A stretch of 64,000 nt of DNA from an uncultured Eubacteriales bacterium. GTDB taxonomy: Bacteria > Bacillota > Clostridia > Oscillospirales > Acutalibacteraceae. Positions within the stretch are counted from its first letter, which is position 1, and the number at the start of each line of letters is the position of its first letter. Where the stretch lies: positions 1-64,000 of the forward strand of contig CATONX010000003.1 of assembly GCA_951801675.1 (NCBI GenBank). The letters are read 5' to 3'. Shown piece after piece: positions 2,529 to 7,409 of this stretch. Below the pieces are notes generated by a model. That model saw only the letters and a list, made by a program, of their open reading frames with translations. It searched no databases and was not told the origin of the DNA. The position numbers and the translations under genes are program-made.

Positions 2529-3581
2529 TTAAAACTGCGTTTCCTGCGGCCGGTTCGGCCCGAGTGCGTCCCGTACCAGCCGTGCCCGCTCCAGATCGGC
2601 CTTGGCCGCGTCCAAGTCCTGTTCGCTGCGGCTGATCATGGTGCCGGGCATGGCGTCGATCAGTAGCCGGCTGATCACGTCCATGGGAATGTCCAGAATC
2701 CCGGTGGCCGCACCCAGGCGGACGTTGGAGATAAGCCCGGTAAATTCCTTGACGGTCAGCGTCCTTGCCGTGGTCAGGATTCCATAGGAGCGCCAGATCC
2801 GGTCCTGCACCCGCACGTCCGCACACAGCTGCTTGCGGGCGTTTCGCTCCTGGGCGATGACCTGCTGGGCAATGGAACGCAGGTTCTCAATAGCCGCCTG
2901 CTCGGAGATTCCTAAGGTTACTTGGTTGGAAAGCTGGTAGACGGCGCCCTTGGCGTCGCTGCCCTCTCCATACGTACCCCGAATGGTAAGCCCCAGCTTT
3001 GCCACGGTGTTTGCTAGCTGGTTCATGCTCCCGAGCTCCTGCAAAGCCGGCAGATGGAGCATCACCGAGGCGCGCATCCCGGTGCCTAAGTTCGTAGGAC
3101 ACTGGGTGAGGTACCCCAGCCGGTCGTGAAAAGCAAAATTGAGCTTTTCGTCGAGCAGGGTGTCGATTTTGTCCGCCGTGTCATACGCCCCGTTTAAGTC
3201 GAGCCCCGGACGCATCACCTGGACGCGCAGGTGGTCTTCTTCATTGACCATGATGGAAACCGATTCATCCTCCAAAAGCAGCAGCGCCGTGCCCGCCGCC
3301 CCCTGGGAAAACTCGGGGCTGATCAAATGCCGTTCCGCCAAGGATACCGCCTGCACGTGAGGGCAATGCTCCATATCTATGTAATGGAAGCTGCCCGCCA
3401 GGGTGGAGTTCCCGTTTAAAACCGCGTCGCGCACCCGCTCCTCCACCTGTGCCTTCTGGGCGTCGGTCATGCGCCCGACAAAGGGAATGTCGGAAAAGTT
3501 GCGGGCCAGCCGGATGCGGGTGGACAAAACCACGTCCCCGTCTGGGCCCGACTGGGTATACCATTTCTTCGAATCTGTCAT
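2529..3581 (-). CDS. mcsB: Protein arginine kinase McsB
   Basis: 350 aa; ATP:guanido phosphotransferase motifs (STRIRLARNF, GTYGEGS); between mcsA and clpC. Confidence 0.96.
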   Translation of the reverse strand: MTDSKKWYTQSGPDGDVVLSTRIRLARNFSDIPFVGRMTDAQKAQVEERVRDAVLNGNSTLAGSFHYIDMEHCPHVQAVSLAERHLISPEFSQGAAGTALLLLEDESVSIMVNEEDHLRVQVMRPGLDLNGAYDTADKIDTLLDEKLNFAFHDRLGYLTQCPTNLGTGMRASVMLHLPALQELGSMNQLANTVAKLGLTIRGTYGEGSDAKGAVYQLSNQVTLGISEQAAIENLRSIAQQVIAQERNARKQLCADVRVQDRIWRSYGILTTARTLTVKEFTGLISNVRLGAATGILDIPMDVISRLLIDAMPGTMISRSEQDLDAAKADLERARLVRDALGPNRPQETQF

Positions 3582-3612: not shown

Positions 3613-4140
3613 TTATTGGTTAAGCCCTTGCTCAAGGGCCTTGATCTCATCGCGCAGAGCCGCCGCGTTCTCGAATTCCTGCTTTTCCACCGCCAGCGAC
3701 AACGCCTTTCGCAGCTCGTCGAGCTGCCGGCGCTGCTTTGCCTCAACCCCGGCGGAGGCCGGGAGCTTGCCTGCGTGGCGTGTCTTTCCGTGCAGGCGCT
3801 GGAGGCTGGGAAGCAGCTGGTCGTAAAAAGTGTCGTAGCATTTCGCGCAGCCTGCCCGCCCGGTGGCGGCAATGTCCTGGAGTGTGGAGCCGCAGCCGGA
3901 ACACCGAACTTCGTCGCCTCCTGCCGGAATTGCCTTGGGATGGGCGGCCTCACCGAACACGCTGCCCAACAGATCATTTAACCCCAGGGAGAAGGGGGAA
4001 TGGATGGAGCCGAACCCGGCCTTGGCCGCGCAGTCGGCACATAAGTACACTTCGGACGCCTGTCCGTTGATTACCCGCTTGATGTGGGTGGTTGCTTCAT
4101 TTTTATGGCATTTTTCACAGAGCATATCGTTCACTCCCAT
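3613..4140 (-). CDS. mcsA: McsA, activator of protein arginine kinase (zinc fingers + UVR motif)
   Basis: CxxC pairs (CEKCHKNEATTHIK, CADC, CSGCGST, CAKCYDTF) and C-terminal UVR motif; operon context. Confidence 0.93.
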   Translation of the reverse strand: MGVNDMLCEKCHKNEATTHIKRVINGQASEVYLCADCAAKAGFGSIHSPFSLGLNDLLGSVFGEAAHPKAIPAGGDEVRCSGCGSTLQDIAATGRAGCAKCYDTFYDQLLPSLQRLHGKTRHAGKLPASAGVEAKQRRQLDELRKALSLAVEKQEFENAAALRDEIKALEQGLNQ

Positions 4141-4178: not shown

Positions 4179-4637
4179 CTAATCAAACATAGCTGCCTGT
4201 AGCAGCATGCTTTTGAGCACTGCCGCGCGCACCGCGTCCCGGTTTTGCGGTGGCACGCTGTGATAGCAGTTATCGGACACGGCCGCCGCCATCAGCTTGG
4301 CGGCCTTGGGGGCCAGCTGCCGGTTGTGCGTCAGGTTTTCCAGAATGATGCGGGCGGTGGAGGCGTCCAAGGTGTCGCCGATGCTGTTGACCACATGCAT
4401 GATTGCCGCGCCCCGTCCGGAGTTGATGCGGGTGATGCGGATGTATCCGCCCCCGCCCCGCCGGCTCTCCACCAGATACCCCTGCTCCGGGGTGAAGCGG
4501 GAGGTCAGCACGTAATTGATCTGGCTGGGCACACATCCAATGGAACCGGCCAGTTCATTTCTCTGGATTTCCGCGACTCCCTGCGCCGCTTCCAGCATGG
4601 AAAGGATCTGCTGGGCAATCTGGTCACTCAACCGCAT
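4179..4637 (-). CDS. ctsR: CtsR family transcriptional repressor of class III heat-shock genes
   Basis: 152 aa; MRLSDQIAQQILSML...RNELAGSIGCVPSQINYVLTSRFTPEQGYLVESRRGGGGYIRI. Confidence 0.96.
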   Translation of the reverse strand: MRLSDQIAQQILSMLEAAQGVAEIQRNELAGSIGCVPSQINYVLTSRFTPEQGYLVESRRGGGGYIRITRINSGRGAAIMHVVNSIGDTLDASTARIILENLTHNRQLAPKAAKLMAAAVSDNCYHSVPPQNRDAVRAAVLKSMLLQAAMFD

Positions 4638-4708
4638 GGTATCACCTCCGCTTTCAACAATTTGTCTTTTTCTGACCTTTCAAGCGGACCCATCCGCTTT
4701 TGTCTTCC

Positions 4709-4753
4709 ATTATACCCGATTACCATGAAAGATCAAAGTCAGTTAAAGTCAAA
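4709..4753 (-). promoter_or_regulatory. Candidate ctsR operon promoter with near-consensus CtsR operator
   Basis: AGTCAGTTAAAGTCAAA at 4737-4753 vs CtsR consensus RGTCAAANANRGTCAAA (2 mismatches); minus-strand -35 TTGATC (4731-4736), 16 nt spacer, -10 TATAAT (4709-4714). Confidence 0.7.
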
Positions 4754-4772: not shown

Positions 4773-4973
4773 TTATCTGGGATTTTCTTCGATTTTCTCC
4801 GGATTTCTCACTTTATTGACTTTTCCTGATTTTTTGTTCTGCGCACCGGTACGCGTTGCATGAGGTGCCGAGTGAGGCAGAGGCTCCTCGGAAAAGGGAT
4901 CGGGCGTCAGATCGTCCGCCAGCTCAAAATCCGCGTGGTAACTTGGTCTCCCGCCATAGCTTGTACGTGACAC
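4773..4973 (-). CDS. Small (66 aa) predicted disordered protein, GTG start
   Basis: GTG at 4971-4973 preceded by GAGGAGGG; MSRTSYGGRPSYHADFELADDLTPDPFSEEPLPHSAPHATRTGAQNKKSGKVNKVRNPEKIEENPR; lies within the longer ORF 4773-5243. Confidence 0.5.
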   Translation of the reverse strand: MSRTSYGGRPSYHADFELADDLTPDPFSEEPLPHSAPHATRTGAQNKKSGKVNKVRNPEKIEENPR

Positions 4974-5278
4974 ATTTAGCCCTCCTCGTTTGCTGATATG
5001 GATAGTGTATGCCAAAAACGAGGTGGTTATACGAAGAGGACGGGAAAAGCGCAATCCCGCCCTCAAAAAGCGACTTGCATCGCCCAAGACGGCCAAAGAA
5101 GAAAATCGAGGGGAATTTTGTAACCAACTACCCGCCCCCGCCATAGTATGGGTTGAAAGCCAACACGGAACGGCACAGAGTAAGAAATCAACGCTTTGAG
5201 CCATCCTCGTGGCGGGCTTATCACCGGCGCGGTGCGCCGACATTACGCAGGCAAAGCCTGCTCAAGGAGGAAATTTGT

Positions 5279-5434
5279 ATGTGTTGTGGTAATGGTTTTG
5301 GTGGCGGCTGCTCTTGGATCATCATTCTGATCATCCTCTTCCTCTGCTGCGGCAATGGCTGGAGCAGTTTCAACAACGGCTGTGGCTGCGGCTGCAACGA
5401 CGGCTGCGGTTGCAACAACGGCTGCGGTTGCTAG
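5279..5434 (+). CDS. Cys/Gly-rich single-TM microprotein (51 aa)
   Basis: AAGGAGG SD; MCCGNGFGGGCSWIIILIILFLCCGNGWSSFNNGCGCGCNDGCGCNNGCGC; resembles proteins usually labelled chorion class high-cysteine HCB protein 13. Confidence 0.8.
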   Translation: MCCGNGFGGGCSWIIILIILFLCCGNGWSSFNNGCGCGCNDGCGCNNGCGC

Positions 5435-5466
5435 TTTAACACACATAGCACGTAGGTCGTATGGAC

Positions 5467-5492
5467 GGGGCGCAGGACGTCTCCTGCGCCCC
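5467..5492 (+). terminator. GC-rich hairpin between the two Cys-rich genes (possible partial terminator)
   Basis: GGGGCGCAGGA-CGTC-TCCTGCGCCCC; T-run ATTTTTCT about 15 nt downstream. Confidence 0.5.
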
Positions 5493-5568
5493 GCCGGCAC
5501 CCCAAAATTTTTCTAAGCTCATGCGCCCAAAGCGCTTTTGATCACGTACGGACAAGGAGGAAACACTC

Positions 5569-5706
5569 ATGTGTTGTGGTAACAATTTCGGCTTCGGTAA
5601 CTGTTCCTGGATCATCATCCTGATCATCATCCTGCTGTTCTTCGGCAACAATGGGAACTGCGGCTGCGGTCGTGACGATGGCTGCGGCTGCGGTTGTGGC
5701 TGCTAG
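5569..5706 (+). CDS. Cys/Gly-rich single-TM microprotein (45 aa), paralogue of 5279-5434
   Basis: AAGGAGG SD; MCCGNNFGFGNCSWIIILIIILLFFGNNGNCGCGRDDGCGCGCGC; below the ORF-track length cut-off. Confidence 0.78.
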   Translation: MCCGNNFGFGNCSWIIILIIILLFFGNNGNCGCGRDDGCGCGCGC

Positions 5707-5768
5707 TCTCATCGGCAAACAAAAAGGAGCCGGGCGTGCGCCCCGGCTCCAGATCCGTATGAGAGAAG

Positions 5769-5796
5769 AAGGGCGGCGCTTTTAGCGCCGCCCTTT
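5769..5796. terminator. Rho-independent terminator, likely bidirectional
   Basis: AAGGGCGGCGCTTTTAGCGCCGCCCTTTC between convergent genes. Confidence 0.8.
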
Positions 5797-5799
5797 CGT

Positions 5800-6309
5800 T
5801 TATCCAATTCCGATGGACTTAAGTAGCCCGTAGCTGAGCAGAGTCATAATAAACCCGGCCACCAAAACGCCTACCGCCACCACCGGCAGCGCGTTTTTCA
5901 GGCGCATGTCCATAATGGCTGCCACCAGCGAACCGGTCCACGCGCCGGTACCCGGCAGCGGGATGGCCACGAACAAAAACAGGCCCAGCATTTTGTACTT
6001 CTGCATGGATTTTGCCTGGCTCTTCTTCTTCGCCCGGTCCTCAAACTTGTGTCCAAGCTTATGGAAGAGCTTCGTTCCCTTCATCCAGTTGATGATTTTA
6101 CGCCCGAAAATCAGGATGAAGGGCACGGGGATAATGTTCGCAATAAAGCAGATCAAAAATGCGCTTTGCCAGGGAATCTGCAACAGATAGGCTGCCAACA
6201 GCCCGCCGCGCAGCTCCAAAATCGGCATCAGGGAAATGACGAACACCACAAGCTCCCTGGACAGATACTGGTCTAAGAATTGGATTAGGTTCTCAACGAT
6301 ACCATCCAA
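5800..6309 (-). CDS. Small multi-drug export-like membrane protein (COG2426 family)
   Basis: MPILELRGGLLAAYLL, PVPFILIFGRKIINWMK, LFVAIPLPGTGAWTGSLVA motifs; multiple TM segments. Confidence 0.85.
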   Translation of the reverse strand: MDGIVENLIQFLDQYLSRELVVFVISLMPILELRGGLLAAYLLQIPWQSAFLICFIANIIPVPFILIFGRKIINWMKGTKLFHKLGHKFEDRAKKKSQAKSMQKYKMLGLFLFVAIPLPGTGAWTGSLVAAIMDMRLKNALPVVAVGVLVAGFIMTLLSYGLLKSIGIG

Positions 6310-6632: not shown

Positions 6633-7409
6633 ATGTTCGATTCCGTCGCTAACGTTTTGGCCATCGCTCTGCCGGTGCTGGTCGCCGTGGTCGCCCTCGC
6701 CGCCTTTATCCGGATTCTGACCCACGCCTCTGCTGACAGCAAGGGCCGGCGCATCAACGACGTGCAGATGAACCCGCCGGTGCTCACCCATCACAGTGAG
6801 CAGGACGATGTGGATTACATGGGCGTGGATACCTATGATAACAGCATTACCCTGTCCCAGGAGGAATATCCTTACCGGGTGCTCGACGAGGAGCCGCAGC
6901 CGCCCGAGCCTCAAGGAACCGGCCCGTCCGTCTTTGCCGATCTGTTGGCGAACGTGGAGGACATCAAGGAGTTTTACGAGCAAAACCGCAAGCAGGCCAA
7001 GGACGTTATGCTCATGGCCGCCGTCTCCTGTTTCTGCGGCATCTGCTTTCTGGCTTTCGGAGTCATCTGGTCGGTGATTCGGCCCGATGGGCTGACGGTG
7101 GGAATCTGTTCCATGGCCTGCGGCCTGGTGATGGAGCTGGCGGCCGCGCTGTTTTACTGGATGCGGCTGAAAACCGCCCGGCAGGTCAACCGGTATTACC
7201 AGCGGGTGTTGGGAGACGCGAAGCTGATGAGCGCGGTGGAGCTGGTAGAGCGCATGAGCGAGAAGAAGCGGGACGATGCTTACGACGCCATCATTACTTC
7301 CTTGGTGGAAGCCTCTTTGAAAGGAAAAGCGAGCCCCGCCTCCGACGAGCTTCTCAAAGCCCTCGCAGGAAGCAAGGAAAAAAGGCAGTCCCGTGCGGCA
7401 CAGCAATAA
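6633..7409 (+). CDS. Membrane protein; C-terminal region resembles the TRADD-N-associated 2-TM domain
   Basis: 258 aa; N-terminal TM, acidic linker, then EFYEQNRKQAKD-TM-TM-KTARQVNRYYQRVLGDAKLMSAVELVERM; family call by eye only. Confidence 0.6.
   Translation: MFDSVANVLAIALPVLVAVVALAAFIRILTHASADSKGRRINDVQMNPPVLTHHSEQDDVDYMGVDTYDNSITLSQEEYPYRVLDEEPQPPEPQGTGPSVFADLLANVEDIKEFYEQNRKQAKDVMLMAAVSCFCGICFLAFGVIWSVIRPDGLTVGICSMACGLVMELAAALFYWMRLKTARQVNRYYQRVLGDAKLMSAVELVERMSEKKRDDAYDAIITSLVEASLKGKASPASDELLKALAGSKEKRQSRAAQQ

Follow-up and report, generated by a model that had tools for sequence, protein, structure and literature searches.

The two tandem cysteine-rich genes at 5279-5706 of the window (the whole 64,000-nucleotide stretch of DNA analyzed here) probably encode late mother-cell components of the spore envelope that are anchored in a membrane and form disulfides. 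The family to which they belong would constitute a kind of small Cys-rich spore-envelope protein, and comparison of related sequences supports its membership in the sigma-K regulon. Sigma-K-dependent expression of the pair during sporulation is very likely, as predicted from its promoter; given such expression, a structural role in the spore envelope would be likely. The assignment to sporulation is strong, and by analogy we infer the crosslinking of coat or exosporium. The family itself, its putative promoter type, its operon layout and its restriction to SigE/SigK-bearing genomes were established by comparative sequence analysis. The genes and their promoter are as follows.

5119-5151, + strand: sigma-K-type promoter of the pair (-35 TGTAACCA at 5119-5126, 15-nt spacer, -10 CATAGTATGG at 5142-5151; score 24.3)
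5279-5434, + strand: microprotein 1, 51 aa, with a Cys/Gly/Asn head, a C-S-W motif plus Ile/Leu-rich core, and a CGC tail
5569-5706, + strand: microprotein 2, 45 aa, a paralogue of microprotein 1 without a strong promoter of its own

Both paralogous reading frames of 51 and 45 aa were found in the place and on the strand given in the initial annotation, and alignment of the two proteins bears out the shared MCCGN, CSWIIILII and GCGCGC ends described there. Each frame is preceded by the expected AAGGAGG Shine-Dalgarno (SD) sequence (5264-5270 for gene 1 and 5554-5560 for gene 2), but the conserved promoter is present only at the first gene. An apparent 93-aa ORF (5153-5434) represents the frame of microprotein 1 extended to an upstream TTG; the start was set at 5279 because the SD sequence and the alignment place it there. 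In same-genus comparisons, most substitutions affect the third codon position (0, 1 and 10, and 6, 6 and 15 at the three positions, G000 vs G002), as expected for coding sequence, with the exception of one copy-1 pair (4, 3 and 4, G000 vs G001), which lacks the third-position bias. Single-sequence AlphaFold places a helix at residues 12-26 of microprotein 2 with low confidence (pLDDT 53). A profile search of the window genome found no copies above noise besides the tandem pair.

Lack of conservation beyond this strain, named at the outset as grounds for dismissing the pair, is refuted by the profile search, which detects the family in 63 of 80 related genomes (E<=0.1); a single-sequence search gave matches in 49 of 98 relatives (E<=1). 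A degenerate DNA pattern requiring the SD sequence, ATG-Cys and the C-[S/T]-W-core matched at least 120 stretches in genome contigs, whose record titles are of the Ruminococcaceae/Oscillospiraceae type (Oscillospirales-type Clostridia); Clostridium viride, Oscillibacter valericigenes, Anaeromassilibacillus and Neglectibacter are among the matches listed. The 144 distinct members have a median length of 43 aa and contain 22% Cys, 20% Gly and 17% Asn; with a mean of 9.6 Cys in a protein of about 43 aa, they show the high Cys content of spore coat and exosporium proteins. Trp is invariant across the 144 members, a [CNS]-x-W motif precedes the core in 98%, and Cys occurs within the last two residues, likewise in 98%. 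The hydrophobic core is 46% Ile and 32% Leu. Neither window protein has a Pfam match above the cut-off (TatA_B_E is the sole Pfam match), none of the 32 members compared with NCBIfam exceeds a cut-off, and a profile search of the PDB returned nothing relevant to the microproteins. The sequence comparisons place the pair in a widespread Clostridia family that is not represented by a curated model in Pfam or NCBIfam. Two members (L303 position 7128 and L295 position 7220) contain two hydrophobic segments and are possibly fused tandem copies.

The promoter region, like the clpC-operon synteny described below absent from the initial annotation, is conserved together with the family. Its layout corresponds to TGTAAC(A/C)(C/A)-N14/15-CATAGTATG, and when 21 compact intergenic regions are aligned, TGTAACAC-N14/15-CATAGTATG stands out as the main conserved element ahead of the gene. 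The distance from promoter to start codon is usually about 55-65 nt and is longer in the window (160 nt). Sigma-E and sigma-K share a common -10 element and differ in the -35 element, ATA vs AC (PMC3789822); by this consensus rule, the microprotein promoter combines a -35 AC with a -10 CATAnnnT at the sigma-K spacing. The assignment to sigma-K follows the consensus; expression may also depend in part on sigma-E or on an accessory regulator. A two-block matrix was trained on the loci linked to the clpC operon, a pass being defined as a score above the 99% shuffle level. It passes 64 of 66 training loci and, as a held-out test, 65 of 69 copies at loci unlinked to clpC, against a background of 11/501 upstream regions of other genes in the same loci (about 2%), one of the 11 preceding a collagen-repeat protein gene. 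The sigma-E-type control spoIVA never passes (0/26), and (G)TCATA...CATA is seen in several of its loci. For dpaA, which is sigma-K-controlled in C. difficile (PMC3789822), 9/26 upstream regions pass the strict matrix, with AC...CATAnnnT visible below the threshold in most others. A strict pattern scan of the window genome gave three matches vs two for a control pattern, counts that are uninformative alone. One of the three matches, in locus L220 (G000:C26:26974-26946, - strand), is a microprotein-type promoter motif that precedes a 108-aa ORF with a BofC_C domain; this ORF lies directly upstream of the best SigK match of the genome, an arrangement that would fit sigK autoregulation.

Second copies of tandem pairs pass the matrix in three of seven cases, and that of the window scores a weak 9.0; at least seven further Clostridia families, more distant ones, show this promoter at first copies but not at second ones. 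Since the second gene of tandem pairs is usually without this promoter, the pair probably constitutes one operon, with the following putative RNA elements.

5158-5278, + strand: 5' leader containing three short hairpins, its folding only slightly out of the ordinary (z = -2.0)
5463-5496, + strand: strong GC hairpin between the genes, not predicted as a terminator (z = -2.8 for 5435-5568)
5726-5800: two strong hairpins (z = -6.7) that separate the microprotein genes from the convergent Sm_multidrug_ex gene, terminator-like on the - strand

The hairpin between the genes is a possible attenuator or an element of mRNA processing or stability, and those at 5726-5800 likely mark the end of transcription.

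The distribution of the family stays within that of the mother-cell sigma factors. Five of the 80 genomes lack a SigE/SigK-grade match, and the microproteins are absent from all five, while 49 of the 55 SigE/SigK-positive genomes of the same taxonomic family carry them (Fisher p = 8.5e-5, or 0.0011 at a stricter profile cut-off, both statistics ignoring phylogeny). Six sporulating genomes of that family are without a microprotein match, two of them less than 75% complete; possession of the protein is hence not universal. In the window genome, matches were obtained for SigK-like, SpoIVA and DpaA proteins. The BclA C-terminal domain represents a family of exosporium nap proteins, and a BclA_C gene adjoins the microprotein in six loci (L053, L060, L074, L091, L119 and L149), the window not being among them. 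All six BclA_C neighbors are convergent with the microprotein gene, and the one in L074 lacks a collagen repeat but is rich in Cys at its head. Of the three roles proposed initially, the one in the spore gains support from the sigma-K-type promoter, the absence from genomes without SigE/SigK and, more tentatively, the BclA_C genes in six loci; the metal/redox and amyloid-like roles gain no specific support, although the Cys comb would be compatible with metal binding.

According to the mechanism proposed here, RNA polymerase with sigma-K would start from the promoter at 5119-5151 and both microproteins would be read. The short Ile/Leu core (about 10-15 residues) would insert the product into a membrane accessible from the mother-cell side, the outer forespore membrane being the most plausible one; alternatively, the core might self-associate. 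It is shorter than a typical membrane-spanning helix and very Ile-rich, and it could form a self-associating beta-type structure instead of a membrane helix. Through disulfides, the many cysteines on either side of the core would link the microproteins to one another and to proteins of the coat or exosporium; by analogy with Cys-rich spore surface proteins, these bonds might help to hold the spore envelope in place and make it harder.

Several known spore proteins resemble the microproteins in part. YjcZ (TIGR01732, tiny_TM_bacill) is tiny, with a small-residue head and a short Ile/Val/Leu hydrophobic core, and the microproteins are similar to it in size, layout and the sigma-K control predicted here. 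None of 32 members matches the YjcZ profile; TIGR01732 gave no match at E<=0.1 in the genomes of 30 relatives (the B. subtilis control matched), and plasmid sequences searched by tblastn with a YjcZ-like core gave no match. To our knowledge, the C-S/T-W motif and the Cys comb are not part of YjcZ. The yjcZ gene belongs to the sigma-K regulon in B. subtilis (PMC517825). CdeC and CdeM from the C. difficile exosporium, compared by description, are likewise Cys-rich spore surface proteins. However, they are much larger than the microproteins and are not known to have a short Ile/Leu core. Self-assembly of CdeC is sensitive to redox conditions (PMC7677010). The Cys-rich CsxA from the C. sporogenes exosporium self-assembles into a hexagonal two-dimensional lattice that yields under harsh reducing conditions, and its gene shares a cluster with BclA-like genes (PMC7333573); Cys-rich and collagen-like genes are often colocated. 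The microproteins resemble CsxA in being Cys-rich and perhaps in gene context, a BclA_C gene being adjacent to them in six loci; they differ from it in size and core.

CotY, CotZ and ExsY (PF10612) are similar to the microproteins as Cys-rich coat or exosporium proteins of Bacillus. The two window proteins have no PF10612 match, and a search of 30 relatives detected no CotY/CotZ-type protein; genomes without them may therefore need another Cys-rich component. It is possible, though still a tentative proposal, that in Oscillospirales and other Clostridia the microproteins provide the spore envelope with a membrane-tethered Cys-comb scaffold, a spore-shell polymer replacing the missing CotY/CotZ-type proteins, with a conserved genomic tie to McsB/ClpC. 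The spore shells of gut Oscillospirales are little characterized, and spores are the means by which many such anaerobes survive outside the host. The microproteins, mostly below ORF cut-offs, offer a small marker family that can be found in genomes, carries its own predicted sigma-K promoter and spans at least eight Clostridia families. The question of what crosslinks the shell in Oscillospirales thereby becomes testable, and the promoter matrix could be used to seek other late sporulation genes in uncultured Clostridia.

The genomic neighborhood raises another reading. Neighbor clustering around 41 microproteins yielded clpC, mcsB, mcsA and ctsR, nearly always divergent from the microprotein; in the window these features are arranged as follows.

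6-2489, - strand: clpC
2529-3581, - strand: mcsB (ATP-gua_Ptrans)
3613-4140, - strand: mcsA (UVR)
4179-4637, - strand: ctsR (PF05848, PF17727), the divergent neighbor of the pair
4661-4677 and 4737-4753: two CtsR-box-like sites (two mismatches each) flanking the ctsR promoter, at least 526 nt from microprotein 1
4736-4709, - strand: predicted sigma-70-like promoter of ctsR

Linkage to clpC could point to a role of the microproteins in protein quality control: a membrane microprotein of heat-shock or thiol stress that works with ClpC/McsAB as an adaptor, redox sensor or substrate, with a control region shared with the divergent ctsR operon. In favor of such a role, the microprotein is divergent from the operon in 25 of 41 loci of the relatives (18 beside ctsR, three beside mcsA and four beside clpC) and in 31 of 68 loci on named contigs that extend 2 kb or more upstream, two sets that overlap in some genomes. 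The divergent address is retained where ctsR is missing and mcsA comes first (L059, L184, L200, L218 and L285), and where ctsR and mcsAB are both missing and clpC comes first (L096, L180, L209, L211 and L212); none of these loci has clear CtsR boxes. CtsR-box-like sites occur in nearly all intergenic regions of ctsR-bearing loci; where ctsR is absent, no match is better than a weak one with three mismatches. Yet the boxes flank the ctsR promoter, upstream of the separate microprotein promoter and without overlapping it, rather than lying over the microprotein promoter as in a CtsR regulon. The same promoter is found at loci without the clpC operon, roughly half of the named loci lie away from clpC, loci outside the operon context have varied neighbors, and the microproteins are absent in non-sporulators. 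Control by CtsR, the first idea suggested by the synteny, is rejected on the box positions and the loci without clpC, and a partnership with ClpC/McsAB is unlikely. Because CtsR boxes lie on the ctsR side only, the clpC-operon position is best explained as a conserved address and not as the source of microprotein regulation.

The composition that fits a spore-envelope component could also be that of a metallothionein-like peptide of the mother cell or spore, which would store or buffer metal and not build the shell. About 22% Cys and the CGC combs are as such a peptide might have; nonetheless, no metal transporters or metal regulators were seen among the recurrent neighbors, and the variable tail length and Cys spacing, with an odd number of Cys in half of the members, are unlike a fixed metal site, which makes metal binding as the main function rather improbable. 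A TatA-like or holin-like peptide that thins or perforates membranes (e.g., in mother-cell lysis) is very unlikely. The short hydrophobic core is bounded by Gly, and weak TatA/E profile matches over the FG...W-I/L-FG stretch were obtained for 12 of 32 members (best E 6e-6), but every match is far below the curated cut-offs (22 bits vs 53.9 for TIGR01411, 17.1 vs 21 for PF02416) and confined to the hydrophobic stretch. Moreover, Lys and Arg are nearly absent (mean 0.27 per protein), so the charged amphipathic helix of TatA/TatE is lacking; no TatC neighbor was seen, and the Cys comb would be left unexplained. Chance ORFs, to which the low-complexity Cys/Gly tails might be attributed, are refuted by the comparative data: family-wide conservation, SD sequences, mostly third-position substitutions and a conserved promoter leave them next to no probability.

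Two other genes of the window were noted. Between ctsR and the microprotein pair, a 66-aa gene (4773-4973, - strand, GTG start, good SD sequence; MSRTSYGGRPSYHADFELADDLTPDPFSEEP...), whose product has no Pfam match, has clear homologues in at least four other genomes (L183, L188, L186 and L211) and weaker ones in L203 and L187. It is accompanied by a conserved ATA-N16-CATACACTA element of the sigma-E type, with a promoter-like site at about 5003-5031 (- strand) in the window, and it is likely an unnamed sporulation gene. Downstream of the pair, 6633-7409 (+ strand) encodes a 258-aa protein with a match to CyanoTRADDas_TM (PF20712), a domain of two transmembrane segments that is associated with TRADD-N proteins.
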